A stretch of DNA of 64,000 nucleotides from Streptomyces koelreuteriae (lineage in GTDB: Bacteria; Actinomycetota; Actinomycetes; Streptomycetales; Streptomycetaceae), in NCBI RefSeq assembly GCF_018604545.1, contig NZ_CP075896.1, positions 434,001 to 498,000 on the forward strand. The letters are read 5' to 3'. This document shows, piece after piece, positions 298 through 8,902 of the stretch (positions are counted from its first letter, which is position 1; every line of letters begins with the position of its first letter). The notes beneath the pieces are model-generated. The model was given only the letters and a program-made list of their open reading frames with translations, did no database searches and was not told where the DNA came from. Position numbers and translations under genes: made by a program.

Positions 298-616
298 CAC
301 CTACGCGGTCGTCGCGGTCCTCGTCACCGCCGCCGTCACCTGGTCCCTGCGCGCCCTGCCGTTCGCCGCGCTGGCCCCGCTGCGGGCCAGCGACACCGTG
401 CGGTACCTCAGCACCCGGATGCCCGCCGGGGTCATGGTGATCCTGGTCGTCTACTGCCTGCGCGATCTGCCGGTCACCGACTCGCGCGCCGTGGCCCCGC
501 TGGCCGCCCTGGCCGTCACCGTCGGCCTGCATCTGTGGCTCCGCAACGCCCTGCTGAGCATCCTCACCGGCACGGCCGTCCATGTGGCCCTGGCCGGCGC
601 GCTCTTCGCCCACTGA
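290..616 (+). CDS. azlD: AzlD-family branched-chain amino acid exporter, small subunit
   Basis: A 108-residue membrane protein with about four hydrophobic helices, which is the normal AzlD size. Recognisable family features are the early TWSLRALPFAAL segment and the mid-protein MPAGVMVILVVYCLRD helix. The ATG at 290 lies inside the end of azlC, so translation is probably coupled. Its role is as partner of AzlC in exporting branched-chain amino acids across the membrane. Confidence 0.87.
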   Translation: MSDTYAVVAVLVTAAVTWSLRALPFAALAPLRASDTVRYLSTRMPAGVMVILVVYCLRDLPVTDSRAVAPLAALAVTVGLHLWLRNALLSILTGTAVHVALAGALFAH

Positions 617-644
617 CGTCCCTCGCCCGAAAGGCACACGCCCC

Positions 645-1442
645 TTGTACACCGACCACTACTACGAGCCGGTCGACACGCACCGCTTCAAGCCCACCGT
701 CCACGCGGGCGGGGCGTGGGACCCGGACGAGCAGCACTTCAGCCCGCTCGCCGGCCTCATCACGCACGCCGTCGACCGGTATCTGGCCACCCGACCGGAC
801 ACCGGCCTCGCGCTCTCCCGGATCAGCTTCGACATCCTCGGCCGGCTCGCCTTGGACGAGTGCGAGATCCGGGTGGAGAGCCTCCGGCCCGGCCGCACCA
901 TCGAACTGCTGGAGGCGGTCGCGCTCATCGCCGGCCGTCCCGTGGTGCGGGCCCGCGCCTGGCTGCTCGCCGACCACGACACCACGGAGGTCGCCGGTGG
1001 CGGCGCGGAGGCGCTCCCCTCTCCCGAGGCACTCGCCTTCTGGCCGCTGACCTCCGTGTGGCCCGGCGGATACATCGCCTCCCTGGACGTCCGTCCGCTC
1101 GCGCCGCCGCGGCCGGGCCGCACGACGGCCTGGGTCTCCACCCGGCTCGGCCTCGTCGCCGGACAGGCCGTGAGTCCTCTCGCGTCCTACATCGCGCTCG
1201 TCGACACCGCCAACGGCATCGCCGTACGCCGGCCGCCCAGCGCCTGGATGTTCCCCAACGTCGACCTCACCCTCCATCTGCACCGCCGGCCGGAAGGCCG
1301 CTGGACGGGGCTCGACACCACCGTCGCCTTCGGCCCCACCGGCCAGGGCGTCACCAGCACCGTCCTGCACGACCTCACCGGCCCTGTCGGGCACGCCCAG
1401 CAGATCCTCACCGTCCGGCCCCTGCTGCCTTCGACCGGCTGA
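645..1442 (+). CDS. Thioesterase family protein (TesB-like, double hotdog)
   Basis: The protein is 265 residues from a TTG start. I chose TTG 645 because GAAAGG lies about 10 bases upstream, while the in-frame ATG at 582 lies inside azlD. The N-terminal part (HAGGAWDPDEQHFSPLAGLITHAV) and the central RPGRTIELLEAVALIAGRPVVRARAWL stretch follow the acyl-CoA thioesterase II double-hotdog layout: two hotdog domains of about 120 residues. It probably hydrolyses acyl-CoA thioesters in the cytosol; the substrate cannot be told. It is 28 bases downstream of azlD in the same direction. Confidence 0.7.
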   Translation: MYTDHYYEPVDTHRFKPTVHAGGAWDPDEQHFSPLAGLITHAVDRYLATRPDTGLALSRISFDILGRLALDECEIRVESLRPGRTIELLEAVALIAGRPVVRARAWLLADHDTTEVAGGGAEALPSPEALAFWPLTSVWPGGYIASLDVRPLAPPRPGRTTAWVSTRLGLVAGQAVSPLASYIALVDTANGIAVRRPPSAWMFPNVDLTLHLHRRPEGRWTGLDTTVAFGPTGQGVTSTVLHDLTGPVGHAQQILTVRPLLPSTG

Positions 1443-1468
1443 ACGGCCCCGGAAGAAGGCCGCGTTCA
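1440..1468. terminator. Bulged hairpin between convergent genes
   Basis: TGAACGGCC and GGCCGCGTTCA face each other around a CCGGAAGAA loop with a 2-base bulge. The structure covers the stop codons of both the thioesterase gene and the facing VOC gene, so it may end transcription in both directions. There is no T-tract, as is usual in actinobacteria. Confidence 0.4.
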
Positions 1469-1858
1469 GCCCTGCTTGGGTGCCGTCGGCGCGGTGCGGC
1501 GCAGGGTGAAGGAGTGGCCCGCCGGGTCGGCGTAGCCGCGTTCCTCCAGGGGGCCCGAGGCGTCCTTGGCCTCCAGGGGGCGGCCGCCGAGGCTGATGAC
1601 CCGGCGTTCGACCGCGTCGAGATCGTCCACCACGAACTCCAGATGGGCCTGGAGGGAGTTCTCGGGGCGCGGCCAGCTCGGCGGGGTGGCGTTGACGTCC
1701 CGGCGCAGGGCGATCCGGAAGCCGTCCGCGCTCCTGATCTCCACCCGGTTGGCCGTCGCGTCCGACTCCTCCCCCTCCAGCAACTCCTTGTAGAACACGG
1801 CGAGCTTCTCGGGCTCGGCGCAGTCGAGCACCAGAACACCCGCTTTCACCAGGGCCAT
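1466..1858 (-). CDS. VOC-superfamily (glyoxalase/bleomycin-resistance fold) protein
   Basis: A 130-residue protein with two beta-alpha-beta-beta-beta modules. It opens with VLVLDCAEPEKLAVFYKELL and has the second module around AHLEFVVDDLDAVERRVISLGG and DPAGHSFTLRR. The size fits a one-chain VOC protein that dimerises. Members of this subfamily in actinobacteria are mostly uncharacterised; some bind metals or small ligands. It converges on the thioesterase gene and stands alone on its strand. Confidence 0.8.
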   Translation of the reverse strand: MALVKAGVLVLDCAEPEKLAVFYKELLEGEESDATANRVEIRSADGFRIALRRDVNATPPSWPRPENSLQAHLEFVVDDLDAVERRVISLGGRPLEAKDASGPLEERGYADPAGHSFTLRRTAPTAPKQG

Positions 1859-2259
1859 GTCTCCTCCGCAGGATTCCGGCCGCGGAGCGTCCTGCCCGGC
1901 GGCCTCGTACCTTGCGGATATCCCGGTACGGCCGATTCAGTCGGGCCGTCAACCACCTTCCGTCGCGCATGAGTTCACGACCGGACGGTGTCCGGTGTGA
2001 CGCCAGGAGGCCGGGGAGGCCCGGCGGGCGGGGCATGCCGGGTGAGGGACGAGGGAGTGTACGCAGCTCAAGCGCTTTCCGCAGTAACCGAGATCACGGC
2101 AGTGTCACGGAATGGCTCATTCACGCCATGGGCAGTCTCGTACCGCTTCTCGGTTCAACGTTCGGATCGCGAAGCCGAGTTCGAGTGTGCGGCCGGTCAA
2201 GACACCGTCCGCTCGCAGGGGCCGGGGGGCTCTGCGGTCCGTCTCCCGAAAGGAAGCAC
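1859..2259. other. Gene-free stretch upstream of the terpene-cyclase remnant
   Basis: About 400 bases between the VOC gene start and the ATG at 2260. I find no convincing reading frame, RNA gene or repeat here. Any promoters for the VOC gene and for the rightward unit starting at 2260 must lie in it, but I could not identify boxes with confidence. Confidence 0.5.
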
Positions 2260-2460
2260 ATGCTTCAGGACGTCCGGTTCGACCTCCCCTTCGACACCCC
2301 GGTCAGCCACCCACACGCCTCGGGCGAAGCAGCGCATCTCGGCTCCAGGGGTCGCGCTGGTCGTGCCTCTCGCGGTCGTTCGCAGCAGGAGCCGAAGCCG
2401 GTCGCATGAGGCCGGCTGTCCGGCGACGCCGTCGCGAAAAGTACAGACCACAGCTCATGG
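2260..2460 (+). pseudogene. Decayed N-terminus of a class I terpene cyclase
   Basis: ATG 2260 has a strong ribosome site (AAAGGAAG) and begins MLQDVRFDLPFDTPVS, then PHASGEAAHLG. This resembles the opening of actinobacterial class I terpene cyclases (Q-D-V-x-F-x-[LI]-P near the start, then a P-H-x-x-A-x-x-x-L segment). The frame stops at 2409 after 49 codons. The later part could continue the family only by switching frame (GVALVVPLAVVRS in one frame, RSFAAGAEAGRM in another), so I read it as a frameshifted remnant. The catalytic core is absent. It lies just upstream of the gene at 2471 and near a CYP157-like P450, a setting where terpene cyclases are often found. The family match is by recalled pattern, not alignment. 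Confidence 0.45.
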
Positions 2461-2470
2461 GGAGACCGGT

Positions 2471-4201
2471 GTGAAATCTCGAGTCGCAGATGTTGTTCCG
2501 AAGGCATCCGCCGACAGCTCGCTCCCGGCGCAGCCAAGCGCCCGGCTCCAGCCCACGGAGGCGGGGAACACCTTGGCCCGCCTCTTGGTGAAACAGATCA
2601 AGGGGAGCACGGAGCAGTACCGAAGGTCCCAGAACGCCGCTCAGCAGCGGCTGAACGCATTCGGCTCCCCCCACGCCGGCACGACGCTGCGTGTGGAGGG
2701 AGCCCTCCATCTGGCGCGGCCCGCGTTCCTCCCTCCCGACGAGGAGGGCCACGCCAGGTTGAGGCACCTCGACACCAGCCTGCGCCTGATCGAAGCAGCC
2801 TTCCCCCAAGTCAGCACCGACATCGAGGTCTGCAGACTGACCTGCACGATGCTGGAAGGGGCCTGGAGGAGCCGGGCACTCACCCCGCCGCGCGAGGAGG
2901 AGCAGACAACCGTCTGCTCCTGCCCTCTGTGCCGTCGGCTGCCCACGCCCCCCGCACGCACGCTGGACGACTACCGTTGGCGGCAGAGCGCCGGTCGTCC
3001 CCTCACCGTCAAGACCTGGCCGCACCGCCGGGAACTCGACAGCGTGCTGACCGGTGGATGGTCCTGGACCCGGCAGCTGAACGACCTCGAACGAGACCTC
3101 GGCCAGCGCCACCGCTTCGAGAACGACATCCTCGTCTTCCACGAATACAAACGTGTGGTCGACACCATCGACACCACGCGTCTCACCCAACACATCGAAG
3201 GCCGTCTGGCCGAGAATTTCAGCACCAACAGCGCACGGGCCCTGGTCTCCGGACTCTTCGCGGCCCACAAGCGATCCGTCGACGAGTACTGGCTCCAACA
3301 GCACGACGCGGGCAGCGTCACGCTCCCCCAGACCAACCCGCTGAACCAGAGCACCTACTCAGCCCTGCAGATGCTGGACTGCCTGTTCTGGCACGTCGCC
3401 CCCGACACCGAACTCTGGCAGGAGGAAAACCTCGCCTCCCTGCTGCTGTGCCGCGCCATCGACGACATGGCCGATGTACGGGCCGACGCCCTCACCGGCG
3501 AGATCAGCAACTTCTGGCTCGCCGACATGCCCACCCACACCAAGGCGCTCTACGCCGCCTGCGCGATAGCCGTCGTCAAGTACGGCTGCATGCCCGAGGC
3601 CCACAGCCCGATGTGGAACACCTGGCTGATGACCACCACCGTCGTCTGGATGGGGCTCACGGGCCGCCACGCCCTGTGGTTCGACGGCATCACCCAGGGC
3701 CTCCCCCCGGCCGAGGAGTGCCCGCTGTGCGACCTGCAGCCCAACCCGTGCACCGGCATCCTCACCGACGGCACCACCCTCACCATCGCCCCGCGGCCCA
3801 CCGCACCGGCACTGAGCACCCGGGCCGCCGAACTGTCCGCACGCTGTCGAGCCCAATACCCCCGGACATGGCGCCTCTTCGACGCCGAGCTCCATGCCTT
3901 CGAAGCACTGCACGGCCCCTGGTACGGCAACACGGACAGCACATGGGAGATCTTGCGCCGCACCTACATCGCCGCCGTGGAGGCGTCCAGCGCCGCACCG
4001 TCGCCGGACCGCGCCCGTCAGGTCCAACAGGACTCCGGCGTAGTCGGATCCGAGAGGTTCCACACCCTGCACGACCCTCGGACCGGGAGGGAAGACACCG
4101 CGCTGCTCGCCTACATGTTCGGCTGTGCCCACCCGCATTTCCTCTGGAACGCCACGGGATACCGTCCCACGGGCGTCGCGGGCGACTGGCTCGACGGCTG
4201 A
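2471..4201 (+). CDS. Unrecognised helical protein with DDxxD motif and two cysteine clusters
   Basis: The protein is 576 residues from GTG 2471, chosen because GGGGAG lies 6-7 bases upstream; the open frame extends further up without a better start. I do not recognise a family. It appears mainly alpha-helical. Notable features are a cluster C-S-C-P-L-C at residues 149-154, N-D-L-E-R-D at 204-209, a DDMAD motif at 331-335 with another Asp at 339, and a second cluster C-P-L-C plus Cys427 at 417-427. DDxxD binds Mg2+-diphosphate in class I terpene synthases and prenyltransferases, but here it sits far from the N-terminus and I find no NSE motif after it. The terpene-cyclase remnant upstream and the P450 facing it suggest, without proof, a role in isoprenoid chemistry. 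The paired C-P-L-C motifs could bind a metal. Confidence 0.6.
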   Translation: MKSRVADVVPKASADSSLPAQPSARLQPTEAGNTLARLLVKQIKGSTEQYRRSQNAAQQRLNAFGSPHAGTTLRVEGALHLARPAFLPPDEEGHARLRHLDTSLRLIEAAFPQVSTDIEVCRLTCTMLEGAWRSRALTPPREEEQTTVCSCPLCRRLPTPPARTLDDYRWRQSAGRPLTVKTWPHRRELDSVLTGGWSWTRQLNDLERDLGQRHRFENDILVFHEYKRVVDTIDTTRLTQHIEGRLAENFSTNSARALVSGLFAAHKRSVDEYWLQQHDAGSVTLPQTNPLNQSTYSALQMLDCLFWHVAPDTELWQEENLASLLLCRAIDDMADVRADALTGEISNFWLADMPTHTKALYAACAIAVVKYGCMPEAHSPMWNTWLMTTTVVWMGLTGRHALWFDGITQGLPPAEECPLCDLQPNPCTGILTDGTTLTIAPRPTAPALSTRAAELSARCRAQYPRTWRLFDAELHAFEALHGPWYGNTDSTWEILRRTYIAAVEASSAAPSPDRARQVQQDSGVVGSERFHTLHDPRTGREDTALLAYMFGCAHPHFLWNATGYRPTGVAGDWLDG

Positions 4202-4298: not shown

Positions 4299-5549
4299 CT
4301 AGACGGCGAACTCGACCGGCAGGCTGTCCAGCCGGGACTCCCACGTGGAGGCCGTCGAGCTGAGTTCTTCCGGTGGTACGGCCAGCCGCAGGTCCGGCAG
4401 CCGGTGCAGCAGAACGTCCACGCCGATCTCGATGATGGACTGGCCGATGTTCTGCCCCGGGCACTCGTGCGGTCCGGCGCTGAACGCCAGGTGCGACTGG
4501 TTGCCCTGCACGGCGACGGCCGTGTCGGGCCGTACCTCCGGGTCGAGGTTGCCGGCGGCCAGGCCCAGGATGAGCAGTTCTCCCTCCTGGACGTGGTGGC
4601 CTCCGAGCTCCATGTCGGCGGTTGCGAACCGGCCCGGCAGCACGGACAGCGGCGGGGCGTCCCACATGACCTCTTCCACCACGGAGGAGACGTTCAGCTC
4701 CCCGCTGACCAGACCGGACAGCCGGGCGGTGTCGGTGAGGAGCCGTTGCAGGACCCGGGCCAGCAGATTGCTGGTGGTGGTGTGCGCGGCGATCAGCACC
4801 AGGCGCAGATGGCTGACGACCTCGTCGTGGTCGAGGCCGGCCGGGTGCTCCAGCAGGGCCGTGGCGAGGTCGGAGCCCGGCTCGGCCCGCTTGCGCTCGG
4901 CGAGTTCCGCGAGGATCTGCATGATCCGCTCGTTGTGCTCGAGGGCGCCCTCACCACCCTTGAAGACCTGGGCGCACGACTCGATCATGCGCAGCCCGTC
5001 CGCCGCGGGAAGGCCCAGCATCCTGGTCAGCACGAGCATCGGCAGCTGCTCGGCGTAGTCGGCCACGAGGTCGGTGTGCCCGGCGTCGGCGAACGCGTCG
5101 ATCTGCTTGTTCGCGAAGTACGTGACGTGCCGCCGGATGCCCCGGGCGGCCGCCGCCTGCAACCCGTCGGTGACGGCGCCGCGCAGCCTGCGGTGCGGTT
5201 CGCCGTCCTGGGACACACAGTCGGGGCGCCAGCCGACCATCGGCATGATCGGCGAGGTCTCCTCGATCCGGCCCTCCCGCCAGTCCCGCCAGATCCGCGC
5301 GTCCCGGCTGAACTGACGGGGATTGTCGAGCACCCGCCGGCTGTCGCGGTAGCCGAGGACCAGCCAGGCGGGCACGTCGCCTTCGAGGAGAACGGGCGCG
5401 ACCGAGCCGTGTTCCTTGCGCAGCCGCTCGTAGATGCCCACCGGGTCGGTCGCCGCCTCCGGCCCGTACAGCCGGGCGAGATCGGCCCCGTGATGGGCGA
5501 CGGGGCAGCCGCTCGGGACCTGGAGGTCGTTTTCGGTCGAGTCGTTCAT
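4299..5549 (-). CDS. cvnE: Conservon cytochrome P450, CYP157-like, lacking the ExxR arginine
   Basis: A 416-residue soluble P450. The heme loop FSAGPHECPG carries the cysteine ligand and the I-helix reads LIAAHTTTSN. The K-helix reads EEVMWDAPP: the arginine of the usual ExxR motif is replaced by tryptophan. Loss of ExxR is a known property of the CYP157 family found in Streptomyces conservons (E-x-x-x-W type), and it supports that assignment. The ATG overlaps the cvnD stop by 4 bases (ATGA), so it is the last gene of the conservon operon. Its substrate is unknown; it would need separate ferredoxin and reductase partners. Confidence 0.88.
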   Translation of the reverse strand: MNDSTENDLQVPSGCPVAHHGADLARLYGPEAATDPVGIYERLRKEHGSVAPVLLEGDVPAWLVLGYRDSRRVLDNPRQFSRDARIWRDWREGRIEETSPIMPMVGWRPDCVSQDGEPHRRLRGAVTDGLQAAAARGIRRHVTYFANKQIDAFADAGHTDLVADYAEQLPMLVLTRMLGLPAADGLRMIESCAQVFKGGEGALEHNERIMQILAELAERKRAEPGSDLATALLEHPAGLDHDEVVSHLRLVLIAAHTTTSNLLARVLQRLLTDTARLSGLVSGELNVSSVVEEVMWDAPPLSVLPGRFATADMELGGHHVQEGELLILGLAAGNLDPEVRPDTAVAVQGNQSHLAFSAGPHECPGQNIGQSIIEIGVDVLLHRLPDLRLAVPPEELSSTASTWESRLDSLPVEFAV

Positions 5550-6151
5550 CGGGGCTCCAGGGCCACGGCCGAGCGTTCCTTCAGGTGGTGGATCAGGGCG
5601 ACGAGGACGTCCCGGCTGGAGGCCCGGTCGCGGGCGTCGAAGGCCACGACCGGGGTGTGCTCGGGGATGTCCAGGGCGTCCCGGATCTCCTCGACCGGGT
5701 AGTTGGTCGAGTCGGGGAAGACGTTCAGGGCGACGACGAAGGGGACCTCCTGCCGCTCCATCTCCTCGATCGCCCGGAAACTGGACTCCAGGCGGCGGGT
5801 GTCCACCAGGACGATCGCGCCGAGCGCCCCCTTGAACAGCCCGTTCCACAGGAACCAGAAGCGCTCCTGCCCCGGCGTGCCGAACAGGTACAGCACCAGG
5901 CTCTCGTTGATGCCGATCTTGCCGAAGTCCAGGCTGACGGTGGTCTGCGTCTTGTCGGCGACGCCGATGAGACGGTCGACGTCGGCACTGGCCTGGGTGA
6001 GGGTCTCCTCGGTGGTGAGCGGCTTGATGTCGCTGACCGACCGGACCATGGTGGTCTTCCCGGTGCCGAACCCGCCGGCGATCATCACCTTCACCGAGCG
6101 GGCGTCCCCGCCCGCCCGCCCTCCGGGTTGGTCAAAGCCTTTCAAGTCCAC
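5546..6151 (-). CDS. cvnD: Conservon Ras-like GTPase CvnD
   Basis: The protein is 201 residues from a GTG start preceded by GGAGG. It has a P-loop (GGFGTGKTT), a switch-II region (LFGTPGQERFWFLW) and ALNVF in place of the NKxD motif, as in the CvnD/MglA-like bacterial small GTPases. It is believed to work with CvnB and CvnC as a membrane-associated complex responding to CvnA. The start lies 20 bases inside the end of cvnC, and the stop overlaps the P450 start. Confidence 0.92.
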   Translation of the reverse strand: MDLKGFDQPGGRAGGDARSVKVMIAGGFGTGKTTMVRSVSDIKPLTTEETLTQASADVDRLIGVADKTQTTVSLDFGKIGINESLVLYLFGTPGQERFWFLWNGLFKGALGAIVLVDTRRLESSFRAIEEMERQEVPFVVALNVFPDSTNYPVEEIRDALDIPEHTPVVAFDARDRASSRDVLVALIHHLKERSAVALEPR

Positions 6152-6503
6152 TGAGTACCTCCTCAAGGAGCGCGAGGTCGGGCCCGCGGCCGGCGTCGTG
6201 CGCCGGGATGGGGTTACGCGCTTCGACGCGACCTGCGACGAGCAGGTCCGACAGCAGCACTGCGAGAATGTTGAAGGGCAGCCCGAGGTGAGCGCCGAGT
6301 TCGGCGACCGACAGCGGGTCGCGGCACCGGCGGAGAATCTCCTCGTGCTCGTGCTGCATGCCCGGTAACGGGGCTGCGCGGGCGACGACGAGCGTCGCCA
6401 CGTCGAGGCTCGACGCCGAACCGCCCGGTCCGCTGCGTCCGCCCGTGAGGACGTAGTAGCGCTCGAGACCGGACGGGTCCGACGGCCTGCGGGGAGCACT
6501 CAT
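6132..6503 (-). CDS. cvnC: Conservon DUF742 protein CvnC
   Basis: A 123-residue DUF742 protein. Typical features are the N-terminal ERYYVLTGGR stretch, an HEEILRRCRDPLSVAELGAHLGLP winged-helix-like segment and a C-terminal LLEEVLSGLERL. The ATG overlaps the cvnB stop by 4 bases. In conservons CvnC associates with CvnB and CvnD; a direct biochemical activity is not established. Confidence 0.92.
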   Translation of the reverse strand: MSAPRRPSDPSGLERYYVLTGGRSGPGGSASSLDVATLVVARAAPLPGMQHEHEEILRRCRDPLSVAELGAHLGLPFNILAVLLSDLLVAGRVEARNPIPAHDAGRGPDLALLEEVLSGLERL

Positions 6504-6910
6504 CCAGAGTGCTCCTCCAGGCGCGGAGTGGTGCCGAGGAGCTCACCCATCCTGCGGGCCAGGTCTCTCATCTGGTGCCCGAGCAGGCCCTGGTCGAGGC
6601 CTTCCCTGGCAAGGACACCGAGGTAGGTCTCCACACCGGCGCGGACCACGAAGAGGTGCCCGCCGTCGACTTCGATCATCGCCAGGCGCAACTGCCCGGC
6701 GTACTTGGGGAACTGCTCGGCGACGGGCTGGGCGAGGGCCTGCAGGCCGGCCACCACGGCGGCGAAGCGGTCGACGTCGTCGGGGTCTTCGGCGCCGTAG
6801 GAGGTGATGGCCTTGCCGTCACTGGAGGCCACGAGGGCGAAGCGGATCTCCTGGATGCTCTCGACGAGATCGCGGAGCGCCCAGCTCACATCTGTTCCTT
6901 GCTGCGTCAT
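6500..6910 (-). CDS. cvnB: Conservon roadblock/LC7 protein CvnB
   Basis: A 136-residue roadblock/LC7-domain protein of the size expected for CvnB. The sequence runs from LRDLVESIQEIRFALVASSDGKAI through VVAGLQALAQPVAEQF to the conserved IEVDGGHLFVVRAG strand pair. Roadblock proteins dimerise and act as regulators of small GTPases, here presumably CvnD. It lies 5 bases after cvnA and overlaps cvnC by 4 bases. Confidence 0.93.
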   Translation of the reverse strand: MTQQGTDVSWALRDLVESIQEIRFALVASSDGKAITSYGAEDPDDVDRFAAVVAGLQALAQPVAEQFPKYAGQLRLAMIEVDGGHLFVVRAGVETYLGVLAREGLDQGLLGHQMRDLARRMGELLGTTPRLEEHSG

Positions 6911-6915
6911 GAGGA

Positions 6916-8640
6916 CTAGTCGCTCTCTTCGGTGCGGTGCTCAGTGGACTCGCGTCCGGCGTCGGTGTCGCGGTCGCCGGGCGCGCGGAACGCCTCTTCG
7001 GCGTCGCGTCCGGCGGTGGCGAAGGCGGCGAGACCCGAGAACGAGGCGTCCGGCGGGATGGCGGAGACGGTGCTCCGGGCCGTCCGCCCGGCCTCCTTGG
7101 GCTCGGCCTCTTCGTTCCGCCTGCTGCGGCGCCGGGGCAGTCCGCCGGGCGTGGTCTCCGCGGCGGCGGCCGGGGCGTCCGGGGCCGGGGCGGTGACCGT
7201 CTCGCGGGCCGGGGCCGCCTTGGCCGTACGGATCTCGGGGGCGGCGGGCGCGGCCGGTGCCGCGGCGGCGGGCAGCGGGCTGAAGTACTTGTGCGGAACC
7301 ACGACCACCACGGAGGTGCCGAGCCACGGGGAGTCCGCGAAGGTGACGCGGATGCCGTAGCGACGGGCGAGGGCACCGACGACGCGCAGACCGATGTTCG
7401 CGTCCTCGGTGATGCCGCCGAGTCCCGCTCCGGGGGCGGTGCCCGCGAGAGCGTGCTCGGCCTCGCGCTTCTTCTCCTCGCTCAGGCCCTTGCCGGAGTC
7501 CTGGATCTCGATGCCGACGCCGTTGGGCACCTCCTTGCCGGAGATGAGCACCGGCTCGGTGGGCGGCGAGTAGCGGGCCGCGTTGTCGAGGAGGTGGGCG
7601 AAGATTAGCGTGAGGTGGTCCACCAGACCGCCGTCGACGCCGAGTTCGGGCAGGTGACGGACCTGGATCCGGTGGAAGTCCTTGATCCGGCCGATGCCGC
7701 CGCGCGCCACGCTGAGCAGCCGCTGCGGCTCCTGCCACTGCCGGCCGGGCCGGTCCGAGCCGCCGAGCACACCGATGCTGGCGGCGAGACAGTCGGCGGG
7801 GCCGATCTCCTGGTCCAGTTCCATCAGGCCCCGGGCGACGGCCGGCAGCCTGCCGTGCTCGCCCTGCATCTCGTGCAGGCGGCCGCGGAGCTTGCTGGTC
7901 AGCACGTGGATGCGGTTGCCGATGCTGATGACGGCCTGCTCGGCGGAGGTGGAGCGGTCGAACTCCGACTCCAGGCCGATCAGGGCGGTGCGCAGCACCT
8001 TGCGCAGCTCGGCCTGGAGGTCGGAACTGACCTTGGCGCACTGGTTGAGCGTGGGCAGGACGTCGTCGATGGCGTCGCCGGAGCGCAGCGCCTCCATCGC
8101 GGAGGGCAGTTGCTCGTCGGCGAGCCGGGCGACGGCGGCGAGCTGGTGGGAGAGCTGTTCCTGCCAGACCTCGGCCTGGTCGGCGAGCTGGGCCTCGTAG
8201 GACGTGGCCTGCTCGGTCAGCCGTTCCTCATAGGCCCGGGAGGTGTCGGAGAGCTGCGTCTCGTACGAGGCGCTCTGGTCGGCCAGGCGCCGCTCGTAGG
8301 TCGCGTTCTGCTCGGTGAGCTGGGACTCCAGGGTGGCGCGTTCGGCGGAGAACTTCCGTTCCAGGCCCGCGACGTGCTGCTGCCACTGCTGGTTGTGCTC
8401 GGCCTGCGTGGTGCGGAAGGTGTTCTCCGCCTTGTGCAGGTGTGCCCGGGTGCGCAGCAGCAGGCGTACGCACACGGCACTGGCCGCCGTCGCCGCGAGT
8501 CCGGCGACGGCCGCGGTTATTCGCTCCGAGCTCATGAACGTGGCGGCAACGGTCCCGCCTCCCAAGCCCAGCGGCATCAACCACCAGCTGTACCAGGCGA
8601 CAGGGGCCCGCGCCGCCGGTGGCGGAGTGGCGAGTTCCAT
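6916..8640 (-). CDS. cvnA: Conservon sensor histidine kinase-like protein CvnA
   Basis: The protein is 574 residues. I chose ATG 8640 because GAAGG lies exactly 6 bases before it; ATG 8646 would have no spacing. In order: two membrane segments (about residues 16-35 and 41-62), a long coiled coil, a dimerisation-like region, an HATPase_c domain (LLDNAARYSPP, then DSGKGLS and GLRVVGALARRYG), and a disordered Ala/Pro-rich tail. No H-box histidine is obvious, as in other CvnA proteins. The coiled coil holds regular 11-residue repeats at about residues 105-166, Q/R-L-x-[ED]-Q-x-x-x-Y-E type. It heads the operon and probably senses a membrane signal passed to CvnB-D. Confidence 0.92.
   Translation of the reverse strand: MELATPPPAARAPVAWYSWWLMPLGLGGGTVAATFMSSERITAAVAGLAATAASAVCVRLLLRTRAHLHKAENTFRTTQAEHNQQWQQHVAGLERKFSAERATLESQLTEQNATYERRLADQSASYETQLSDTSRAYEERLTEQATSYEAQLADQAEVWQEQLSHQLAAVARLADEQLPSAMEALRSGDAIDDVLPTLNQCAKVSSDLQAELRKVLRTALIGLESEFDRSTSAEQAVISIGNRIHVLTSKLRGRLHEMQGEHGRLPAVARGLMELDQEIGPADCLAASIGVLGGSDRPGRQWQEPQRLLSVARGGIGRIKDFHRIQVRHLPELGVDGGLVDHLTLIFAHLLDNAARYSPPTEPVLISGKEVPNGVGIEIQDSGKGLSEEKKREAEHALAGTAPGAGLGGITEDANIGLRVVGALARRYGIRVTFADSPWLGTSVVVVVPHKYFSPLPAAAAPAAPAAPEIRTAKAAPARETVTAPAPDAPAAAAETTPGGLPRRRSRRNEEAEPKEAGRTARSTVSAIPPDASFSGLAAFATAGRDAEEAFRAPGDRDTDAGRESTEHRTEESD
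8145..8328 (-). repeat. Hendecad (11-residue) coiled-coil repeat within cvnA
   Basis: Residues 105-166 of CvnA carry about five 11-residue units. Leu recurs at 108, 119, 130, 141, 152 and 163, and Tyr or Trp at 115, 126, 137, 148 and 159. Units read like QLTEQNATYER and RLADQSASYET. The 33-base periodicity is visible in the DNA. An 11-residue period predicts a nearly straight or slightly right-handed coiled coil rather than a heptad one. Confidence 0.8.
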
Positions 8641-8902
8641 CTGCATCCTTCGAACAAACACGATCGAACAGGGGGGGTGTGGATCGCACTCATGAGTACG
8701 CACCGCGAGTCGACCGGACGCGATCGCGTCAACTCGCAGCGCCGATCGGAACCTTATCGGGTTTAGACCCGAAAGGATCAACCTCGTCACCCTGCGGACG
8801 TGAGGGTTCCGTCACGCTCCGACAGAAAGCGAAAGGTCGACAAATATCCACGCCAAGCAGCGGAGTTGACCAGGGACGGCCGCTCGCGACCGGCGGGTGG
8901 GG
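8641..8902. other. Conservon promoter region
   Basis: About 260 bases between the cvnA start and the end of the GlxA/AraC-type regulator gene. It must carry the conservon promoter. The only ordered element I see is the palindrome at 8757-8772, listed separately. Confidence 0.5.
8757..8772. promoter_or_regulatory. Palindrome TCGGGT-TTAG-ACCCGA upstream of cvnA
   Basis: Perfect 6-bp arms around a 4-base centre, about 117 bases before the cvnA start. It could be an operator for the conservon promoter or a short hairpin. No nearby regulator can be assigned to it. Confidence 0.35.

Follow-up and report, generated by a model that had tools for sequence, protein, structure and literature searches.

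The window, by which we mean the whole stretch of DNA that was analysed, covers 64,000 nucleotides of Streptomyces koelreuteriae (contig NZ_CP075896.1, positions 434,001 to 498,000). Near its start, an intact open reading frame (ORF) on the forward strand follows the remnant of a terpene synthase gene and converges with the P450 gene of a conservon. The features discussed here, with residues numbered along the ORF protein, were the following.

2262 to 2409, forward strand: remnant of a terpene synthase N-terminus, MLQDVRFDLPFDTPVS, read directly.
2471 to 4201, forward strand: intact ORF with a GTG start, 576 aa; candidate non-canonical class I terpene synthase.
2915 to 2932, forward strand: first cysteine cluster, CSCPLC (residues 149-154), possibly half of a zinc site.
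3080 to 3097, forward strand: NDLERD (204-209), of the form [N/S]DxxxD; proposed equivalent of DDxxD/DDxxxD.
3269 to 3286, forward strand: KRSVDE (267-272), a basic/acidic pair on a helix between the two putative metal motifs.
3461 to 3511, forward strand: DDMADVRADALTGEISN (331-347), an NSE/DTE-like second metal motif matching canonical terpene synthases in register.
3647 to 3679, forward strand: W393...R399-H400..W403 (W-x5-RH), possible counterpart of the RY pair.
3719 to 3751, forward strand: second cysteine cluster, CPLC...C (417-427, with CPLC at 417-420 and then C427), possibly the other half of the zinc site.
4299 to 5549, reverse strand: CYP157-like P450 gene (PF00067), a conservon accessory gene of the cvnE type, convergent with the ORF.
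5546 to 8790, reverse strand: conservon genes cvnA-D (GTPase, DUF742, roadblock and histidine-kinase-like), with a HATPase match within 6916 to 8640; the P450 gene ends the conservon.

The reading in the frame of the ORF was open upstream to 1988, and homology started only at 2471. The ORF protein matched no Pfam or NCBIfam model at E ≤ 10, and neither the protein (best E 0.5) nor its family profile had a significant sequence match in the PDB. Relatives were encoded at 56 loci of species-representative genomes, and the family alignment held 55 homologues, mostly from Streptomyces, at 53-95% identity. The family was present in 27 of 295 genomes sampled from the order, one spurious weak match being left out, and in 2 of 397 genomes sampled evenly across the phylum; the plasmid collection that was searched held no homologue. 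The most divergent members, at 53-56% identity, came from Actinomadura rudentiformis (L053), Allorhizocola rhizosphaerae (L054) and Nocardia wallacei (L055). The main N. wallacei copy stood isolated, near genes for a FabH-like ketosynthase, two small alpha/beta hydrolases, a menaquinone-type MenD and an isochorismate synthase. Comparison of the window gene with ten homologues gave dN/dS values of 0.25-0.60, and the ORF is therefore under purifying selection, although not of an extreme kind; the low synonymous distances among the homologues are probably an effect of strong GC codon bias. One weak match elsewhere (L085, E 0.003; 460-1989, reverse strand) was a CATRA-N/CATRA-C protein that had only the patch FEALHGPWxG in common with the window protein (residues 477-486), and it was set aside as a local coincidence.

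The initial annotation had pointed to DDMAD at residues 331-335, NDLERD at 204-209 and cysteine clusters at 149-154 and 417-427, all of which are present in the translation. It had taken DDMAD for the DDxxD of a class I terpene synthase, lying too late in the protein for any canonical order; both points probably have to be revised. Helix H of bacterial class I terpene synthases carries (N/D)D(L/I/V)x(S/T)xxxE, often followed by G(E/D)xxN at a fixed distance, and an intact canonical example is NDIHSYERETSRHEAHN, from the terpene synthase encoded beside the Actinomadura homologue. Set against this extended NSE motif, DDMADVRADALTGEISN showed the same positions and the same flanking G, E and N, with Asp in place of both Ser and Glu and with Met at position 3. 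Position 331 varied only between D and N, as in canonical NSE/DTE motifs. A reading of DDMAD as a class I DDxxD that no further motif follows was rejected, since its flanks match the NSE helix and residue 331 is Asn in five homologues. When the six-frame ORFs of all loci were scanned (1,444,319 residues), the pattern [NDQH]D[LIVMFWH].[STGDC]...[ED]...[GEHD][EDA]..N matched only the window family, a second unannotated family described below as family 3, and canonical terpene synthases; because this pattern was composed after the sequences had been seen, and because the sample was enriched for these families, the informative part of the result is the empty background. Upstream, the form [N/S]DxxxD was found at residues 204-209 in all 55 homologues, the first Asp of the canonical motif being Asn or Ser here. 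NDLERD lies 127 aa upstream of DDMADVRADALTGEISN, compared with 141 residues between DDQFD and NDIHS in the Actinomadura terpene synthase. Canonical class I order thus fits once NDLERD is placed first, and DDMAD is probably the second of two acidic motifs.

A single DDxxD is expected 0.108 times in the ORF protein from its composition, so the motif alone is weak evidence and its strict conservation weighs more. The residues invariant in all 55 homologues were C149, C151, C154, D205, D209, D219, E225, K267, R268, D271, E272, D303, D332, D335, D339, G343, E344, N347, W393, R399, H400, W403, C417 and C420. Position 331 was D in 50 and N in 5, and position 204 was N in 54 and S in 1. This conservation of acidic and cysteine residues is not due to chance. 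Of DDMAD and the clustered cysteines, D332, D335 and five cysteines were thus invariant, D331 was replaced in five homologues and C427 was lost in two. A loss of the aspartates from most homologues, which the initial annotation had named as grounds for abandoning a prenyl-diphosphate enzyme, was not what we found, as they were kept across the alignment. The pair R399-H400 stands in place of the C-terminal RY pair, 68 aa past the second motif; in the Actinomadura terpene synthase the distance from NSE to RY is 94 aa. The KRSVDE region, with K267 and R268, may contact the diphosphate.

Isoprenoid genes surrounded the ORF in its divergent relatives. In Actinomadura, a tight run consisted of a P450, a terpene synthase (PF19086, E 2.8e-45), the ORF homologue and a GMC oxidoreductase, alongside genes for a mevalonate kinase-like protein, a diphosphomevalonate decarboxylase and an HMG-CoA reductase. 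Because a canonical terpene synthase adjoins it there, the ORF product could be an accessory protein in that cluster. In Allorhizocola, the order was DXS, IspG, a polyprenyl synthetase resembling GGPP synthase, the ORF homologue and an alpha/beta hydrolase, and a terpene synthase profile search of about 35 kb around the ORF found no canonical terpene synthase. The view that the window ORF lies behind a terpene-cyclase remnant was confirmed: MLQDVRFDLPFDTPVS resembles MPQKVRFEIPFAPHVS, from the N-terminus of the intact synthase in Actinomadura, and four other Streptomyces loci (L042, L020, L023 and L035) carried broken pieces of a terpene synthase and a P450 upstream of an intact ORF, fuller than the remnant in the window. 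At the S. fulvoviolaceus locus (L042:8106-8249, forward strand), a C-terminal terpene synthase fragment, EDIQHWVNGTYEWALTTGRC, lay downstream of the ORF by transposase-like sequence, with the N-terminal fragment upstream. The simplest history would be an ancestral cluster of P450, terpene synthase and ORF, of which the first two genes decayed in Streptomyces and the ORF was kept. One of the loci (L047) came from the olindenone producer S. olindensis; the olindenone study does not name a cyclase and describes chemistry that points to a type II mechanism (PMC12453296), and we therefore claim no connection between the ORF and olindenone.

Two further unannotated families resembled the window family at the level of motifs. 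N. wallacei also had a second copy of the window protein, now decayed (L099:11399-12322, forward strand), which lay among two terpene synthases and adjoined the gene for an unannotated 597-aa protein (family 2; L099:11870-13663, reverse strand), in a cluster that also contained a P450, an AMP-ligase and a reductase. A homologue 47% identical to this protein was encoded on the megaplasmid of Streptomyces clavuligerus (L100), and a profile of both proteins found family 3 (L101 and L102; E 4.5e-9 and 3.7e-7), whose unannotated members have about 640 aa and the motif NDVIDLGYDWxSGD. The order D-x2-D-x3-D-x4-[ED] followed by W-x5-RH, a pattern chosen after the sequences had been seen, was common to the window family and families 2 and 3 (L099-L102) and occurred nowhere else in the sample. 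Comparisons of the window family with families 2 and 3 by hhalign gave P values of 0.24-0.56, in the same register each time and never significant, and HMM searches did not rank them above decoys. Overall similarity is thus not significant, and no pair of cysteine clusters was seen in either family, in contrast to the window family; kinship among the three is likely but unproven, being a resemblance of motifs only. The Nocardia family 2 locus had isoprenoid neighbours, and so had family 3, which in two Streptomyces genomes (L104 and L105) was divergent, on the opposite strand, from the cassette also seen in Allorhizocola, of DXS, IspG and GGPP synthase (54%, 71% and 48% in L104; 57%, 71% and 47% in L105), the L104 cluster also carrying a UbiA gene. 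Family 3 may itself consist of non-canonical terpene synthases.

Structural comparison was less informative. An AlphaFold2 model built from 55 sequences was mainly helical (pLDDT 69, pTM 0.76), with pLDDT below 50 at residues 208-235 and 336-348, the segments flanking the proposed active site; a further run that started from the Allorhizocola protein gave a poorer model (46.7). The model was weakest at the motifs, and Foldseek returned no match at E < 0.001 in the PDB or BFVD, whether to the class I alpha-bundle that the initial annotation had named as supporting evidence or to another fold. By the same searches, with the same weakness of the model at the motifs, no confident match to a non-isoprenoid fold appeared. 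The Foldseek hits, some of which were terpenoid synthases, all lay far from significance and were not used. Alignment of the window family with 40 terpene synthases by hhalign gave a P value of 0.35, the best alignment covering only 11 columns, which lay elsewhere than the motifs. The lack of any significant sequence or fold match to an isoprenoid enzyme would suit a protein unrelated to terpenes, in which the acidic motifs and the isoprenoid neighbours had come together by chance and the cysteines formed a zinc-binding structural core, and its 14 cysteines with two CxxC clusters are indeed unlike canonical terpene synthases. We regard such a protein as very doubtful, given the independent isoprenoid contexts in Actinomadura and Allorhizocola, the decayed terpene synthase in Streptomyces and the absence of the NSE-register motif from the rest of 1.44 million aa.

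Among known enzymes, the ORF protein is like the canonical bacterial class I terpene synthases (PF19086, Terpene_syn_C_2) in the order of two acidic motifs, the NSE register with G(E/D)xxN and the isoprenoid context. It differs from them (PF19086/PF03936) in having no profile similarity, [N/S]DxxxD as its first motif, Asp for the Ser and Glu of NSE, RH for RY, about 200 extra residues and two conserved cysteine clusters. Non-canonical class I terpene synthases have been described as classes IB (BalTS), IC (AsR6), ID (PeuTPS), IE (SalTPS) and IF (NpsTPS); classes ID to IF came to light through structure prediction in the neighbourhood of E-prenyl diphosphate synthase genes, and several homologues of ID, IE and IF have an E-prenyl diphosphate synthase gene or a P450 gene nearby (PMC11234867). 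The main text of that study mentions no paired cysteine clusters such as those of the ORF protein for classes IB-IF (PMC11234867). The ORF protein is like these classes in lacking recognisable class I sequence similarity and in having replacement metal motifs. The class IB motifs DYLDNLxD and DY(F,L,W)IDxxED were found in 0 of 55 homologues, and the class ID set of D(N/D), ND and RxxKD was not matched, RxxKD occurring in only 2 of 55. For class IC, no PDB chain matched the ORF protein or its profile in the copy that we searched, which presumably contained AsR6. Most likely, judging from motifs and context, the ORF product works like a class I terpene synthase yet stands outside the canonical family and classes IB and ID, while IE (SalTPS) and IF (NpsTPS) entered the comparison by description only.

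Among other isoprenoid enzymes, the E-prenyl diphosphate synthases (PF00348) offer a further parallel, as DDxxDxxxD in the ORF protein resembles their second aspartate-rich motif. The protein differs from them in having no Pfam match, only one DDxxD, and a first motif without DDxx(xx)D and the RR that follows it; the Allorhizocola cluster, moreover, already contains a separate GGPP synthase. A broader alternative is that the ORF encodes some other prenyl-diphosphate enzyme, such as a prenyltransferase, a diphosphatase or a coupling enzyme that acts together with the GGPP synthase or with a neighbouring terpene synthase. The motifs and context would be the same, and in Actinomadura, where the cluster has its own canonical terpene synthase, one would expect the ORF to supply a different activity. 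The Allorhizocola cluster and the two family 3 clusters (L104 and L105) have a separate GGPP synthase and no canonical terpene synthase, so the missing step there is cyclisation, although the UbiA gene of L104 tempers the argument for that cluster. On balance, we consider an activity of this kind distinctly unlikely.

In Streptomyces, the most persistent neighbour of the ORF was a conservon. The initial annotation had the ORF facing a CYP157-like conservon P450, and the convergent PF00067 gene agrees with this. Its product has EVMW in place of the expected ExxR and an intact heme-binding region, FSAGPHECPGQ; EVMW at the ExxR position fits the CYP157 type. A P450-bearing conservon lay within about 6 kb of the ORF at 46 of the 51 Streptomyces loci with enough flanking sequence. 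The arrangement of the window, with the ORF convergent with the P450, was seen at 41 of the Streptomyces loci; at four others (L048, L050, L051 and L057) the conservon was on the opposite side of the ORF with CvnA nearest, and at L049 the nearby conservon was a much more divergent one (36-58% identity). A conservon next to the ORF was absent from five Streptomyces loci and from the Actinomadura, Allorhizocola and Nocardia members. The occurrence of three arrangements suggests more than inertia. Conservon P450s (cvnE) have been proposed as inputs or modulators of the kinase, with their function, like the ligands of conservons, still unknown (PMC13343842). The ORF is a persistent neighbour of conservons with such accessory P450s in Streptomyces, but it is unlike conservon accessory proteins in encoding neither a P450 nor a GAF protein and in lying on the opposite strand.

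The conservon association raises the alternative that the ORF product has a class I terpenoid enzyme as its ancestor and no longer cyclises, or never did, serving instead as a binding partner for a terpenoid or prenyl diphosphate and reporting, for example, to the conservon through its P450. Persistence of the ORF beside the P450-bearing conservon at most Streptomyces loci and in three arrangements, after decay of the terpene synthase and its P450, would agree with such a role, as would the proposal that the accessory P450s modulate the kinase (PMC13343842) and the degenerate first metal motif (N204). Against it, the putative metal ligands are all invariant, which a non-catalytic relic would not need; the Allorhizocola and Actinomadura members lie in isoprenoid clusters without a conservon; and the ORF and the conservon, being on opposite strands, do not form one operon. 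A non-catalytic partner is therefore unlikely in our view.

We hold with moderate confidence that the ORF protein represents a new family of non-canonical class I terpene synthase, its fold and activity being predicted from sequence. The reading rests on the NSE register, the invariant acidic sites, the order and spacing of the motifs, the isoprenoid contexts, the companion families and the decayed neighbours. Against it stand the absence of a significant profile, Pfam, NCBIfam or PDB match, the degenerate first motif and the Asp that replaces the Ser and Glu of NSE. The suggestion of a new prenyl-diphosphate enzyme with a structural metal site thus gained from gene context, motif register and strict conservation, but not from the fold, the model being weak at the motifs. 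The substrate is probably a C15-C20 prenyl diphosphate, GGPP or FPP, and GGPP is favoured because of the Allorhizocola context. For a terpene synthase of this kind, [N/S]DxxxD (204-209) and (D/N)DMxDxxxD (331-339) would lie on opposite sides of a helical bundle, facing one another, and coordinate Mg2+, and K267/R268 and R399/H400 would grip the diphosphate together with both metal motifs. The diphosphate would then leave and the carbocation would cyclise in the cavity. The CxxC clusters at 149-154 and 417-420 may together coordinate a single zinc ion in tetrahedral geometry and so hold two loops of the protein in place. The enzyme would work inside dedicated isoprenoid clusters in Actinomadura and Allorhizocola; in Streptomyces, it would be retained beside the conservon, and the conservon P450 might then either modify its product or detect it.

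A more far-reaching version of the terpene synthase reading would make the family an undescribed class with its own zinc site, spread across actinomycetes, and in Streptomyces uncoupled from its cluster and paired with the conservon. The terpenoid product, which the CYP157-like P450 might oxidise or bind, would then act as the ligand controlling G-protein signalling; we think this whole picture quite unlikely. Searches for terpene synthases rely on sequence profiles, which miss the ORF family despite its presence in about a tenth of the genomes sampled from the order. If it does consist of terpene synthases, the ORF and the two companion families would point to more hidden terpene chemistry and would supply a motif by which to search for it. 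A conserved candidate terpenoid enzyme beside a conservon would also make a small-molecule input to these signalling systems directly testable.
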